From an uncultured Haliea sp. (GTDB lineage: Bacteria; Pseudomonadota; Gammaproteobacteria; Pseudomonadales; Halieaceae), in contig CAJXWP010000004.1 of NCBI GenBank assembly GCA_913062625.1, positions 1 to 64,000 of the forward strand: a stretch of 64,000 nucleotides of DNA, given 5' to 3'. Under the pieces are notes generated by a model that was not told the DNA's origin, made no database searches, and saw nothing but the letters and a program-made list of their open reading frames with translations. The translations under genes and the position numbers were made by a program. Shown here piece by piece: positions 56,953-63,641 of the stretch. Position 1 is the first letter of the stretch. Each line of letters begins with the position of its first letter.

Positions 56953-57360
56953 GGCGCATAACCTTCTGTTTGAGCGATTGCAGGGTGCCTCCACACCTGC
57001 TTGGGCGCAGACATAGAGGGCGAACACAGCCAAATGAACAAAATCTGATTATTGTTCATTGTCAGCCGTTGGTCAAGTTAGCAGCGTTTTAAAGCTCAAA
57101 CGGTTGTTCGCCATGGCCCTCAAGGCAAGCGATAGAGACCCTAGGTCAGCCGCAACTGTCAGTTGTCGGGGAATGACTGAAGCGTATGGCCATCTCAGGA
57201 CCGGTTTTGGCAGGGCCACATCAGCGTTTGATGCTTGGCGCATGGCATCTGCGGCAAAGGCGGATGCCGACGACTGCTAGATAACTGTCTAGCAACGCAG
57301 GCGGAGCGACACGCTAATCATAAGTGGGTGTTGAGGTGTGCTCCTTCTACTGTGCCGTGC

Positions 57361-58509
57361 CTATTCAGGGTTAGAGTACCCATAGGCCGCAGGCCAATCG
57401 CTCATTTGCGCTGGTGGTGCAGGGCACTTGTCTGCTGCAGGTAGGGCCTGGCCCGATGCACAATCGCTGGGGCAGAAGCCCTGGTCATCGCACTTTGCAC
57501 CCACAGCCACGGGCCCCGTCACGCCCCAATTACCATCAGCACATGCGGACTGGGTATTTTGCATCATGCCTCGGTCTTCGTGACCTAAAATGTGGCAATG
57601 GTTCACGAACACACCTGTGAAGCCTTTCGCTACGTACAGGAACCTGGCATGGCCCCAGGGTTTAGTTTCATCGAAAGGATTTGAATTAGGCGGGCGCTCG
57701 TCCGGCACGTCATCCACGTTTTTGGCTTTTTTTCATCCCACACCCGTTCCTGCGGGGTCTTCGGCGCCTGCGGGAGGGGCAATGTATCCCTCCACACAGG
57801 GTGTTTGAACTCATTCGGCGTGCGATTAGACATGCTTAAGAGCTGAAACGGGTTCTGATGGATGTGAAACGGGTGGGCAACATTGAGGCTGTTGTTCCAT
57901 AGTGTCCACTGCTGGGGCACGTCCATAGTGAGTGTCTCGTTGGCGCAGTCGGAATTATATTTCGCTTGAGTAATCCAGAATTGAGTTGTAACGCCTTTAG
58001 CCTGATTAACCATTTGATAGTAATTGACCATTGACCATTGACCATTGACCATTGACCATTGACCATTGACTAGCATCGCATTGGTGTTATTTGCGCCGTC
58101 GAGACCGGGTGATTTTTCTTGGACCTGCTGAACGACCATTAATCGATCCTTTAGCGCTGCGCCCCCTTTCGTTTTGAAGTACTCGTCCAGCTGATCATCA
58201 AACTCGCCACGCACTTCAAACGTGCCGACCAGTCCATTCAGCACCTTCGTTCAGCTCGACGATATCGGTCTTATAGACGGCCTGAGAGTGAGCAGGCGGT
58301 AGTAAATCATTGGTCGATGAAGAATCATCCGAGTAGGCCCCTAGCACCAAAACACTTGCAACAATTGCAGAACAGGTACGGAGACGAAGAACGTCGGGCA
58401 ATGTCTGCGCGCTCTTTGGCTGCACGTTAACGCCGCGGGGGAAATGGAACTTCAGCCATAAGCTACACCTCTTGATTGGATAGTTACTGAGCAGACTAAT
58501 AACCAGCAT
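57361..58509 (-). pseudogene. Multicopper oxidase remnant (N-terminal domain lost, internal deletion, frameshift)
   Basis: Cu-site motifs in two frames: NVAHPFHIHQNPFQLL (ORF 57630-58244) and VFVNHCHILGHEDRGMM (ORF 57361-57717); frames join if one A is added to the 7-A run at 57727-57733 (minus sense). Confidence 0.82.
58023..58070. repeat. Heptanucleotide tandem repeat (ATTGACC)6 plus partial ATTGAC
   Basis: Direct reading of 58021-58071: taattgaccattgaccattgaccattgaccattgaccattgaccattgact. Confidence 0.97.
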
Positions 58510-58649
58510 CGTGTCTGTCTGTCTGCCGGCAACGTAAATTCTCTGATTATTAGGATTAAGCTAAGCTATAATCATGTAAGTTAGACGTTACGGCCAATTC
58601 ATGTCAAAGCAAGGGTGAGCCAACACACTAGTCGAGAGTGCTACCGAGC

Positions 58650-58720
58650 ACCCTGTATAGCTCGATTGATGACTGACGGTGGCGTCCCCTTCAGTAAGCC
58701 GAGCTTTATGTACACCCCCT
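58650..58720. repeat. Copy 1 of diverged direct repeat (partner 63642-63711)
   Basis: 46 of the first 58 aligned positions identical by eye; core GACTGACGGTG..GTCC.CTTCAGTAAG..GAGCTTT. Confidence 0.7.
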
Positions 58721-58833
58721 TGTATTGCTCCGAACTGTCGATACCATCGAGACTTCGGCCATGGCTATTTTGAACGGTCGCCAGCAAGATGCGATATTAA
58801 TTTTTAACCTAATTAATTCGCGGAGTTCTTAGA

Positions 58834-59565
58834 GTGAGTCAGAGCAGTAATAACACAGATAAGCGTCATCATCTATCTTCGATGTTAATGCGAGAAAGTT
58901 TGCTGGATAAAGATGTAGAGCGATCAACTGAAATACCCGTTGTGAACATGCTGCCTTATGCACAGGTGGTCAAGCTTGGGGGCGTTCGATAATGAACGCC
59001 GGTAGGGATATTACATTGCCCGTTGTGGACGAAATTGCGAAGTGTTTGGAAGAGCACAAACTAATTATTGGCACCGGTGGAGGTGCACGCAGCAGACATG
59101 TGCTTTCTATAGCGATCGACATTGGTATGCGTACGGGCGTATTGGCCGAATTAGCTCAAGCGGATGCCTTAGGTAACGCTCATATTTTGGGTACTTTGTT
59201 GGTACCTTATGGGGTGGTAGCGATACCTCCTAAGGTCGGCAGTATACCTCCTCACCGAACAGATGCTGGTTCATTGTTGTTGTCTGAATGCTTTGGCTGT
59301 AAACGATTAACGTTAGTTACTGACGTTGACGGTTTGTATGATAAAGATCCCAATAAAAATAGTGGCGTTACGCTCATTGATGGAATTTCAGTATCTGACA
59401 TAAAAAAGTGGATATAAAACATTAACTTTTAAAGTGATATTGTTAGACATCTTGCCTAACGGGCGATTGATTAAAGAGTTTAAAATTTTGAATATAGCTG
59501 AACCGGGACGTTTCACAGTAACCTTAAACGGAGAGCATGATGAAACGATTGTGCATGCACACTAG
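58834..59565 (+). pseudogene. Molybdenum storage protein subunit (MosA/MosB-type, amino-acid-kinase fold), frameshifted
   Basis: Frame 1 (GTG 58834): ...EIPVVNMLPYAQVVKLGGVR*; frame 2 (58992-59417): MNAGRDITLPVVDEIAKCLEEHKLIIGTGGGARSRHVLSIAIDIGMRTGVLAEL...GSIPPHRTDAGSLLLSECFGCKRLTLVTDVDGLYDKDPNK; frame 3: KTLTFKVILLDILPNGRLIKEFKILNIAEPGRFTVTLNGEHDETIVHAH*. Confidence 0.82.
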
Positions 59566-59582
59566 TGTGGTGATCCCTAGAT

Positions 59583-60512
59583 ATGTTAAGTGTTAAATTT
59601 CTAATGGGCTTAAATACGATCGTGCGAGAGGTAAAAAAAGTTTTAAAATTAAGCTTGTGTGCCGTGCTGGTCATAGCGGGGTGCGGTGAGGTGAAAAATA
59701 CAGACGAGGCTATTTTAGTTTTCGCGGCGGCCAGTTTACGTGATGTAATGAAGGAAATTGGCACAAATTATGAGCAGTCAACAGGTGATTCTATAGTGTT
59801 TAATTTTGCTGGCTCTAATGTTTTGGCTCAACAAATTGAAGCGTCTGCGCAGGCTGACATCTATCTTTCGGCAAATGTTCAATGGATGGATTATCTGATG
59901 GATAAAGGCCTTGTAGCTCCTCGCAGTAAGAAGGTCTTTTTATCAAACAGCCTCGTCTTTATTGCTAACAAGCGCTCACAACTAGTATTGAATGCTCCAC
60001 AAGATCTAAGCTCTTTATCTTTCCGGTTTTTATCTCTGGGTAACCCAGAGTCAGTTCCAGCAGGTCGATACGCGAAAGAGTATCTTAGCTCTTATCCTTT
60101 GGATGCTGCGCAGGCAAGCGTTCAGCCCTTGAATGAGCCTTTGAAAAAAAATAAAACTCTCTGGTCCAGTGTTGAAAATAAAATTCTGCCAGCTCCAAAT
60201 GTAAAGGCTGCTACTAGTATGGTCGAAAGTATGCCTGATATTTTAGGCATCGTTTATAAGACAGATGCCCTGGCCTCTGATAAAGTTAAAATATTATTCG
60301 AAGTGCAAAGTCATGAAAATAACTATAGCCCTCGCGTACAGTATTTAGCGGCACGTGTAAAAAAATCATTTAGTGAAAAGGATAAATCTGATGACGTTAA
60401 ACATATGAGAGAGCTACATGCGGCAAAGATGAATAGTTTTCTTAAGTACTTGTTGGAAGAGGAAGCTAGAGAAGTATTTAAAGCTCATGGCTTTAATACT
60501 GACATACATTAA
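59583..60512 (+). CDS. modA: Molybdate ABC transporter substrate-binding lipoprotein ModA
   Basis: LSLCAVLVIAGC lipobox; ILVFAAASLRDVMKEIGTNYEQSTGDSIVFNFAGSNVLAQQIEASAQADIYLSANVQWMDYL; internal start MNTIVREVKK possible. Confidence 0.9.
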   Translation: MLSVKFLMGLNTIVREVKKVLKLSLCAVLVIAGCGEVKNTDEAILVFAAASLRDVMKEIGTNYEQSTGDSIVFNFAGSNVLAQQIEASAQADIYLSANVQWMDYLMDKGLVAPRSKKVFLSNSLVFIANKRSQLVLNAPQDLSSLSFRFLSLGNPESVPAGRYAKEYLSSYPLDAAQASVQPLNEPLKKNKTLWSSVENKILPAPNVKAATSMVESMPDILGIVYKTDALASDKVKILFEVQSHENNYSPRVQYLAARVKKSFSEKDKSDDVKHMRELHAAKMNSFLKYLLEEEAREVFKAHGFNTDIH

Positions 60513-60577: not shown

Positions 60578-61246
60578 TTGAACACTGCAACTCTAGACGC
60601 AATGCAGCTTACCCTTCAGGTTGCTAGTTTGGCTACGCTCATCATACTGATTCCTGGTGTGCTGCTAGCCTATGCATTCGCTCGATTTTCTTTTAGAGGA
60701 AAAAGAATTGCTTCCGCAATTGTTGGAATTACTCTAGTGTTGCCGCCTACAGCGGTTGGCTATTTATTGTTGCAGATTTTGGCGGCAGACGGACCTCTAG
60801 GGTTCAGAACTATAGGTTTTGACTTGAATATTTTATTAACTTGGAAAGCGGCGGTAGTAGCTTCTTCGGTAATGGCTTTGCCCTTGGTTGTCCGTACAGC
60901 GCGAGTCGCTTTTGAAGGTGTTGATCCTCAGCTTGAGCAAATGGCAAGAACTTTGGGCTTTGGCCCGATTAAAACATTTTTTTTCTTCAGTTTGCCTTTA
61001 GCATCCAGAGGATTAATCGCTGCAGCCATTTTGGGTTTTACTAGAGCTGTAGGAGAGTTTGGAGCGACGGTTATAGTCGCGGGTAATATTCCTGGTAAAA
61101 CTCAAACAATAGCTTCCGCAATTTTTTCTGCCCAACAAGTGGGTAACGAAAAAGAAGCCTACTTCCTATTGGGCTTAGCAATTATTATTGGGTTTGTTGC
61201 TATCTTCAGTGCTGAAACTCTTTCTGAAAGCAAGTACAAAAATTAG
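60578..61246 (+). CDS. modB: Molybdate ABC transporter permease ModB
   Basis: [84 protein letters not shown] start. Confidence 0.93.
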
Positions 61247-61251
61247 AGAGC

Positions 61252-62403
61252 GTGTTGAGAAATATGACTGCTTTAAAACTTAGCTTTGCAATTACTTCAA
61301 GGTTTGAAGGTTTTGAATTAAACCTTGAAGCCGAATTTAGGCAGTTGGTGACAGGCGTTTTCGGTGTTTCTGGCGCCGGAAAAACACTGTTTCTTCGGTG
61401 TTTAGCAGGCTTAGAAAAAAACATTAGTGGTAACATTTTTTTCAATGGTACTGAATGGCTAAGCAGTGAAAAGCGGATTTTCCTTGGGCCAGAGGTTAGA
61501 CGTATAGGGTATGTCCCTCAAAACGGGTTGTTATTTCCAAACAAAAATGTAATGCAAAATCTACTCATCGCGTCCCATAGAAGAAGAACAACAGAAGGCA
61601 ATGGGCACACTGCAGTATCATTAGAATCAGTCTGCGAGCTACTTGAATTAGATGCGTTGCTTGAGAGGCCAATTAACAAACTATCTGGAGGCGAACGGCA
61701 AAGAATTGCATTAGGGCGTGCGATTTGTTCTGATCCCGATTTGCTACTATTAGATGAGCCTTTAGCTGCTCTCGATTTAAAATTAAAGCGCCAAATCTTA
61801 CCTTTTCTTCGCCGCATTCGCGATGAGCTAAAAATACCTATGATTGTTATTTCTCATAGCCCTGTAGAGATTCAAGCGCTTTGCGATGAAGTATTAGTTA
61901 TTCAGAACGGTAAAAAATTAGCTTTTGGTCAAACGCAAAAAATATTATTAAGTCAAAGTGTTCTTGAATTTACTCACGGAGAGAGTTACGAGAACATACT
62001 GCCTGTAAAAGTGCTTCTAAACTCAGAAGAGAGAAGCTCTAAAAGTGGAATGACTAGGCTTGAAATTTCAGATGGAGTTTCGAATAGTAAGTCCTCGCAC
62101 AAGCTGATTATACGGAACGTCGACTTAAAGGCTGGTGAAAAGTTAATCGTCGGAATTCCTGCTAAAGATATTATACTTGCGACCCATAAGCCTCACGGTA
62201 TTTCGGCGCAAAATATCATTCCCGCTTTTGTAAATGGCATAGAGACGGTAGGAGGTAAATGTTTGATTAGCAACGTCCTGTCTAATGAGAAATTTGAACT
62301 TAACGTCGAATTGACTGTGCAAGGTTTACGTGACTTAAATTTGCAGATAGGGGATGCAGTGTTTCTTATTATTAAGTCAAGCGCGTGTATAGTCTATCGA
62401 TAG
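61252..62403 (+). CDS. modC: Molybdate ABC transporter ATP-binding protein ModC (with TOBE/Mop-like C-terminus)
   Basis: GVSGAGKTLFLRCLAGLE, NKLSGGERQRIALGRAICSDPDLLLLDEPLAALD; ATG at 61264 also possible. Confidence 0.93.
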   Translation: MLRNMTALKLSFAITSRFEGFELNLEAEFRQLVTGVFGVSGAGKTLFLRCLAGLEKNISGNIFFNGTEWLSSEKRIFLGPEVRRIGYVPQNGLLFPNKNVMQNLLIASHRRRTTEGNGHTAVSLESVCELLELDALLERPINKLSGGERQRIALGRAICSDPDLLLLDEPLAALDLKLKRQILPFLRRIRDELKIPMIVISHSPVEIQALCDEVLVIQNGKKLAFGQTQKILLSQSVLEFTHGESYENILPVKVLLNSEERSSKSGMTRLEISDGVSNSKSSHKLIIRNVDLKAGEKLIVGIPAKDIILATHKPHGISAQNIIPAFVNGIETVGGKCLISNVLSNEKFELNVELTVQGLRDLNLQIGDAVFLIIKSSACIVYR

Positions 62404-62421
62404 TCACGTTATGGAAGATCA

Positions 62422-62713
62422 ATGGTGAACAATAAACAGTTACGGTTTGTCACTTACCTTCCCAGTCTTTTATTTGCGGCAGTTCAGAGCTTGCTAATAT
62501 TGCTGGCGCCTCTATTGGCGTTAAAGGGCGAAGCATCTTGGTTAGAGGCTGGTTTTCAATGGCGTTTTGAGCCCGCTTTTTATTGGTGGTTTGGGAGTGC
62601 TGTTTACGCCGGGAGTGGCAGCTACTGCGATTGGTGGGGTAGGTATAGTGGGTGCCGGGCTATTAATATGTTATGCCAAAGAAACCCTCGATAATCTGAG
62701 TACTGGAAATTGA
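62422..62713 (+). pseudogene. Small membrane protein, frameshifted
   Basis: Frame 1: MVNNKQLRFVTYLPSLLFAAVQSLLILLAPLLALKGEASWLEAGFQWRFEPAFYW; +1 frame from ~62585: GGLGVLFTPGVAATAIGGVGIVGAGLLICYAKETLDNLSTGN*. Confidence 0.6.
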
Positions 62714-62816
62714 TTAGAATGATTGTCTTTTGGCAGATTTCGATTAAAACCATTGTTAATGGCTTTGATTTATTTCTTTAGATTTTGATGATTTTTTTAT
62801 TTATAGAAAGGAAAGC

Positions 62817-63178
62817 ATGTCAATAATCTTAAAAGCAGTCATTTGTTAGTTGTGTCTAACTGCTTTAGGTTGACAGCTTGGTACTTTCGTTTAAAACAGT
62901 GGGACAGCAAACCGTGGTATGTAGCAGCCTTTCTGAGTTGGTCCATTGCGTTTTTCGAGTATTCTGTTCATATCCCAGCGAATAGAATTGGAATTGAAGT
63001 GCTCACGCTGCCTCAGCTGCAGGTGTTGCAGGTAGCGATGTCTCTTCTTGTTTTTATCCCGTTTACAATTTTTGTCATGGGGGAGTCTATTAAGTTTGAT
63101 TATATGTGGGCAATGATTTGCCTTATGGGCGCAGCCTATTTCATCTTTCGTAATACAGGAGGAGCTTTACGCTTGTAG
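62817..63178 (+). pseudogene. DMT/DUF486 family small membrane protein, frameshifted near the N-terminus
   Basis: ATG 62817 MSIILKAVIC* and frame 62843 LLVVSNCFRLTAWYFRLKQWDSKPWYVAAFLSWSIAFFEYSVHIPANRIGIEVLTLPQLQVLQVAMSLLVFIPFTIFV...; adding one T restores MSIILKAVILLVVSNCFRLTAWYFRLK. Confidence 0.72.
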
Positions 63179-63222
63179 GAAATTTCTAGAATTTAGAAAA
63201 GATTATTGAGTAATGTTGACAA

Positions 63223-63369
63223 TTATTTAGGCGAGTTATTTCGGATTAGGTTCAGCTCGCGGTCTAGCCATGCACTCGCTTCTTTAATTTTTTGGAGTAG
63301 TGTCAAAAGTGTAAGCTCATCACTTCTAAGTGAAAATACTCGGAACCCGAATGGTTTTGGTGGTTAGAC
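63223..63369 (-). pseudogene. Possible C-terminal gene remnant
   Basis: Minus-strand reading PPKPFGFRVFSLRSDELTLLTLLQKIKEASAWLDRELNLIRNNSPK* looks protein-like but is closed by a stop immediately upstream. Confidence 0.3.
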
Positions 63370-63641
63370 AGATAGGGATGGGGCGATATAGCCGCGGAAT
63401 AGTCGTCAACGAGGATAAAAGAGATAGCATAAGGGGTGAAACTAAACGCACATAAATCTCTGGCCGGTTGTGAAACGTGTGCCAGCGCAGATATTTTTGA
63501 AGCATGGGAGTCACCGTTTTAGGTTCGGCCTGCCAACTGGCTAATTATCTGCGGGGGTAACCAGGCCGATCCAGTGCAATGGGGGCGGGGTTTTATGTCG
63601 AAGAAAGGATTAGTCGACATCAGTCTCGGACAGTATCTGGT

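Follow-up and report, generated by a model that had tools for sequence, protein, structure and literature searches.

Decay of a molybdenum-storage-like gene beside a preserved, probably imported modABC importer in an uncultured Haliea sp., and the scar of the native importer

In the genome of an uncultured Haliea sp., a broken gene of the molybdenum storage protein (MoSto) family precedes an intact modABC molybdate importer, and the best explanation of this arrangement, to which we would assign a probability of roughly 0.87, is that a horizontally acquired island encoding both uptake and storage displaced the native molybdate importer, and that the storage half of the island then decayed. According to this account, an island at approximately 58.5-63.4 kb of the window (that is, of the whole 64,000-nucleotide stretch of DNA that was analysed) would have been acquired from an Arenicella-like bacterium, and would have carried MosB-side and MosA-side storage genes, its own modABC, an MFS transporter and a DMT_6 gene. 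The foreign modABC, the only importer of the ModABC type that was detected, would have been kept and would supply a set of molybdopterin enzymes. The storage unit would have been under no selection: of its two genes, the first has disappeared and the second persists as a pseudogene.

The remains of the storage gene occupy window positions 58834-59565 and comprise three reading-frame pieces, with two frame changes and one 90-bp in-frame deletion (Table 1); the first and third pieces share a common frame, and the second lies in another. The lesions were called by DNA alignment against the closest intact homologue, found at a locus of an uncultured Arenicella MAG (termed L002) and 73% identical over 238 aligned residues; the host genome is a 117-contig assembly, and single-base lesions were read from the assembled sequence alone. 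In three-frame translation the old frame meets stops immediately past the first lesion, and in the intact L002 homologue a Pro-Pro codon pair stands on both sides of the segment that is deleted at the second. An initial annotation had described a broken MosA/MosB-like gene in three ordered pieces, with frame changes at about 58990 and 59415 and a segment some 30 residues too short; translation, homology and DNA alignment with L002 bear out that description, the positions of both frame changes being right and the missing residues corresponding to the 90-bp deletion at ~59226. In the third piece the motif GEHDETI is found where GEHVGTI would be expected. As it stands, the pseudogene is predicted to make neither a nucleotide-binding loop joined to the core nor a cluster-binding segment.

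Table 1. Features of the putative island and its left flank (positions in the window)
Feature	Position	Strand	Description
Multicopper-oxidase remnants, left of island	57361..58509	-	C-terminal Cu-oxidase_2 pieces in different frames; PF07731 1.4e-8 and 5e-5; most of gene missing
Island left transition	58510..58833	.	53% GC host DNA to low-GC island; GC 0.46 here; site of MosB-side gene in relatives
mos pseudogene piece 1	58834..58983	+	VSQSS...VVKLGG, N-terminus through KLGG loop; 72% identity to L002 residues 1-50
Lesion 1	58978..58991 (near 58981)	+	Net -1 in G-rich stretch; frame 1 to frame 0; pairwise DNA alignment, three-frame translation
mos pseudogene piece 2	58983..59407 (ORF 58992-59417)	+	RSIMNAG...ISVSDIKK, amino-acid-kinase core; phmmer to MoSto 1.6e-31; Pfam AA_kinase 3.1e-16
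Lesion 2	59226..59231	+	90-bp in-frame deletion between Pro-Pro codon pairs; segment equivalent to MosA residues ~132-163 lost
Lesion 3	59405..59419 (near 59408)	+	Net -2 (or +1) beside A-run; frame 0 to frame 1; DNA alignment, three-frame translation
mos pseudogene piece 3	59419..59565	+	TLTFKV...GEHDETIVHAH, C-terminus; 60% identity to L002 residues 229-275
modA	59583..60512	+	Intact, molybdate-binding protein; TIGR01256 143.6 bits (cut-off 62.5)
modB	60578..61246	+	Intact permease; TIGR02141 186.7 bits (cut-off 182.6); 81% identity to L002 ModB
modC	61252..62403	+	Intact ATPase, TOBE domain; TIGR02142 297.2 bits (cut-off 285.05); Pfam ABC_tran and TOBE
MFS transporter remnant	62422..62830	+	34% over residues 14-54 only of L002 post-modC MFS (407 aa); frames broken afterwards
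DMT_6 (DUF486) gene	62843..63178	+	Mostly intact; inverted relative to L002; 71% to L002 DMT_6; Pfam PF04342 2.9e-34

The middle piece alone (141 residues) matches the beta and alpha subunits of the Azotobacter Mo-storage protein at 1.6e-31 and 2.5e-28, respectively, and its best UMP kinase match is 3.5e-7, a difference that excludes both chance similarity and a plain UMP kinase; the possibility raised in the initial annotation, that the best hits might prove to be UMP kinases, is answered by the same comparison. The identification of the gene as UMP kinase (PyrH) was tried and rejected on profile scores of 52.5 bits (cut-off 158.05) and 19.9 bits (cut-off 243.9) against TIGR02075 and TIGR02076, to which the intact L002 homologue scores 67.4 and 32.1 bits. 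The gene thus shows homology to MosA/MosB well above that to other amino-acid kinases and is nested within the tree of MoSto-like pairs, and it has no intact ORF, being interrupted by the two frame changes and the deletion.

A genome scan recovered 44 clear relatives of the mos gene (L002-L045), the best being that of the Arenicella MAG, and in 42 of these 44 loci the homologue is the second of an adjacent gene pair. A tree of 92 rows (for which the program warned of long branches) splits the first genes, together with Azotobacter and Azospirillum MosB, from the second genes and MosA, with support of 100/99; the window gene groups with the second gene of L002, again with 100/99, and so falls on the MosA side, subject to the same long-branch warning. 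This placement agrees with the gene order in Azospirillum, which is beta then alpha. By these measures the pseudogene is the putative MosA-side, second gene of the pair, and the lost partner would be the MosB-side first gene. An assignment to MosB, with which the initial annotation had compared the length of one segment, was given up after the tree and the Azospirillum gene order had been considered; the gene sits instead on the MosA side, in a divergent family without the Mo8-cluster ligands of Azotobacter. The two adjacent, different subunit genes that characterize MoSto, present in 42 of the 44 relatives, are reduced in the window to remains of the second. When the window was searched by tblastn with the relatives' first-gene proteins, nothing better than E=0.29 was found for a MosB-side gene, and with first- and second-gene proteins together nothing better than E=0.11 was found outside 58.8-59.6 kb; a MosB-side partner was also not found elsewhere in the host genome at E <= 0.001.

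The importer that follows was judged intact by the NCBIfam equivalogs TIGR01256, TIGR02141 and TIGR02142: binding protein, permease and ATPase all exceed the curated cut-offs within one cluster, in agreement with the original description of the mos gene as lying directly upstream of an intact modABC. The window modB is the only ModB above the family cut-off in a profile search of the host genome, which also contains MoaA, eight molybdopterin-oxidoreductase matches and one XDH-type enzyme; nitrogenase was not found in it. ModABC is presumably expressed and importing molybdate. The XDH-type Mo enzyme is encoded on the same contig at G000:C4:87380-88021, in a genus-syntenic stretch approximately 25 kb away from the island.

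The surroundings of the importer point to a foreign origin of the entire block. At L002 the gene order is mos-mos-modA-modB-modC-MFS-(DMT_6), with an intact mos pair, and L003 has the same order through modC; in the window it is mos (second gene, broken)-modABC-MFS (remnant)-DMT_6 (inverted). GC content is 53.5% as far as 57 kb, ~41% across the island and ~50% beyond it on the same contig, with a sharp change near 58.3 kb. The ModB encoded in the window shares 81% identity with that of L002, 58-70% with the ModB proteins of nine further mos-linked loci, at most 44% with that of any relative, and ~36% with those of congeners. Intact orthologues beside modABC, for which the initial annotation had suggested a search, are present at L002 and L003, and no mos gene was found in any of 96 relatives from the genus, family and order. 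The block is on this evidence best regarded as a low-GC import from outside the lineage, transferred probably from an Arenicella-like donor into the host. Consequently, the earlier view of a lineage losing molybdenum storage and keeping uptake stands as regards the loss of the one and the retention of the other, but not as regards an old store of the lineage, given the 0/96 count and the low GC of the import.

The contig itself runs to 97.4 kb, and its segment from 73.3 to 88.5 kb matches a congener (G012) at ~80%, which indicates that the contig is native and not a stray one. An empty insertion site was not found in the ~1.0 Mb sampled of that congener, where the right part of the contig was matched and the left side was not; nor was a close orthologue of the AI-2E gene of the right flank, considered as a synteny marker, found in congeners. 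No RNA element (such as a Moco riboswitch) was found in Rfam for 57-64 kb. A multicopper oxidase is also located upstream of the L002 mos pair and is weakly similar to the window remnant (32% over 85 residues). Within that remnant, on the minus strand, lies a perfect heptanucleotide repeat, (ATTGACC)6.9, at window positions 58023-58070.

Beyond the initial annotation, the analysis revealed that the first mos gene is missing, that the island is apparently foreign, that the next gene (MFS) has decayed, and that the native modABC has been lost elsewhere in the genome; this last, the replacement of a native importer by a foreign one, is the more striking loss. In congener G006 the native modABC is intact between comF and srkA, and in congeners G005 and G012 a native-type modB lies beside DNA matching the same site. 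The corresponding host site (G000:C54) contains, on one contig and with clean junctions, comF, the start of modA, modC codons 158-221, the last ~16 modC codons and srkA, of which the first 271 codons are present before the contig end and the rest opens contig C47. The scar (L114:8734-9045) joins the start of modA to modC codons 158-221, and these to the last modC codons, so that ~190 bp of modC are included in the remnant. Two deletions would account for this structure, by which the native comF-srkA modABC was removed and the imported importer came to displace it; a foreign set is present and the native set is lost at its conserved site, as in xenologous displacement. Since no other ModB exceeds the cut-off and the native set is a scar, the foreign modABC is the only ModABC-type importer detected. 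Native-type ModB is also absent in some congeners, and its loss therefore need not depend on the import. The simplest account would be that the imported modABC either made the native one redundant, and so permitted its displacement, or replaced it after an earlier loss, storage being useless in this host; the order of these events may have been either.

Decay within the block appears to be selective. ORF cover amounts to 93.5% in 1000-57033, 41% in 57034-59582, 97.5% in modABC and 34% in 62404-63400. In a comparison of nine mos-mod clusters, the mos branch of the window has a length of 0.355, as against 0.096 for L002, and at columns fixed in outgroups the window gene carries 11 changes and that of L002 one (two-sided p=0.006). 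The corresponding branches (window/L002) are 0.48/0.77 for ModA, 0.107/0.198 for ModB and 0.53/0.44 for ModC, with six changes at fixed columns in the window and five in L002 over all three proteins; taken by itself, the difference in rate between mos and modABC is no more than suggestive (Fisher p=0.07). These values suggest that modABC has been maintained between two decayed stretches, and that mos alone evolves fast. Among 55 columns invariant in the family, 14 fall within gaps of the window row, and two of those still covered by the three pieces are changed; 2/55 is within the range of intact proteins and is a weak test alone, and relaxed selection on mos is consequently argued from its rate relative to that of L002. 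Keeping the store may plausibly carry a cost, since an A. vinelandii mosAB deletion is reported to have grown slightly better than the wild type, and to have been the better competitor, at 1 uM molybdate (PMC6448029).

The frame changes might instead be errors of sequencing or assembly, with a mos gene that is intact in the cell; the sequence is that of an assembly, and two of the lesions are found at homopolymer runs, lesion 1 within a run of G and lesion 3 next to a run of A. A 90-bp deletion and an absent partner gene are no indel errors, however, and substitutions at conserved columns (11, against 1 in L002) go beyond the frame changes and argue against mere sequencing error; moreover, breakage extends to the neighbouring multicopper oxidase and MFS genes, while ORF cover stays high in modABC and the 56 kb upstream, and this explanation is accordingly very improbable. 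It is just as improbable that the middle ORF (58992-59417, 141 aa) still yields a short protein with some function, or that frameshifting gives a full product. That ORF is open, begins with ATG and has only two covered invariant columns changed, but it is without the KxGG loop, the cluster-binding segment, the C-terminus and a partner gene; frameshifting would require two opposite shifts, and the sequence at lesion 1 offers no canonical X XXY YYZ site.

The origin of the island might also be explained otherwise. That it is a contaminating piece joined to the contig by misassembly would fit the abrupt change in GC, but seems quite improbable in view of host-like GC on both sides, of the genus-syntenic stretch that the same contig carries at 73-88 kb, and of the consequence that the genome would be without ModABC despite its many Mo enzymes. 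Vertical descent, with the mos-mod block present in an ancestor of the lineage and later lost from the sampled relatives, could appeal to the wide scatter of the gene family among phyla; it is exceedingly improbable, as the gene is found in none of the 96 relatives, GC is low, and the modABC of the congeners is another one, at another conserved site.

In the A. vinelandii MoSto, His156 and Glu129 bind the octamolybdate (PMC4504029); judging by their numbering and by the residue letters found there, these two residues probably belong to the MosA-type subunit. Unlike Azotobacter MosA (Glu129, His140, His156), 43 of 43 intact second genes have Pro at position 129, Phe at 140 and Ser or Ala at 156 (MosA numbering), and all 43 have His at 135 and Trp-Glu-His at 158-160, the family thus adding His135 and Glu-His 159-160. 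The cluster ligands of MosA proper are therefore lacking in the intact family, and position 156 is deleted in the window, where the deletion (~132-163) also takes out the conserved His135 and Trp-Glu-His of a putative metal-binding segment. Because the Azotobacter ligands are replaced in all 43 second genes, these relatives are here termed a divergent MoSto-like family, which presumably stores molybdenum. Both modA and modB occur in the flanks of 13 of the 44 mos loci, and nitrogenase-family protein was not seen in 35 of 40 carrier genomes (some assemblies being incomplete), the other five being cyanobacteria. Tentatively, and with less than even confidence, we would regard the intact relatives as a distinct MoSto-like family, found in Cyanobacteria, Acidobacteriota, Planctomycetota, Bacteroidota and Gammaproteobacteria, in which other strictly conserved residues (His135, Trp-Glu-His 158-160) serve to store an oxyanion, in hosts mostly without nitrogenase and frequently next to a ModABC of its own type, the window representing a unit that moved as a block and was then split by selection. 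In many loci (L007, L012, L022, L033 and others) the mos pair is closely followed by an ABC-type ATPase, 25-31% identical to ModC and distinct from it.

The case illustrates that the uptake and storage halves of a transferred block are separable by evolution, and it provides a natural knock-out of molybdenum storage with uptake left, in a genome that also preserves the scar of its native importer; the question of which half of such a block a non-diazotroph needs is thereby made testable. The pseudogene and the gene displacement are a fresh example of known phenomena. The divergent family, widespread in non-diazotrophs and with metal-binding residues unlike those of the one studied protein, may hold something new, and is possibly the new part here; in those parts of the open literature that were searched, no account of mos-modABC linkage or transfer was found.

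Several known systems invite comparison. Like MosA and MosB of Azotobacter vinelandii (PDB 2OGX, 4F6T; PMC6448029), the proteins of the intact relatives are homologous amino-acid-kinase-fold subunits encoded by an adjacent pair, and they align with Azotobacter MoSto over their whole length; unlike it, the copy in the window is broken and has no partner. The mos pairs of Azospirillum plasmids (annotated as 'uridine kinase' and 'molybdenum storage protein subunit alpha') share the order of beta-side then alpha-side gene; unlike the window family, they are true MosA/MosB orthologues, and modABC is not adjacent to them in the stretches examined. Their MosB-side genes (L110, L111) carry the annotations 'uridine kinase' or 'uridine monophosphate kinase', and the L110 copy matches MoSto beta at 5e-153. 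Compared with other ModABC importers, that of the window is of a mos-linked type, its ModB being only ~36% identical to the ModB of congeners. Finally, the arrangement resembles xenologous gene displacement, in that a transferred gene set is present and the native one is lost, with the difference that a single genome here displays the scar of the native set, the foreign set and the passenger genes that were discarded.
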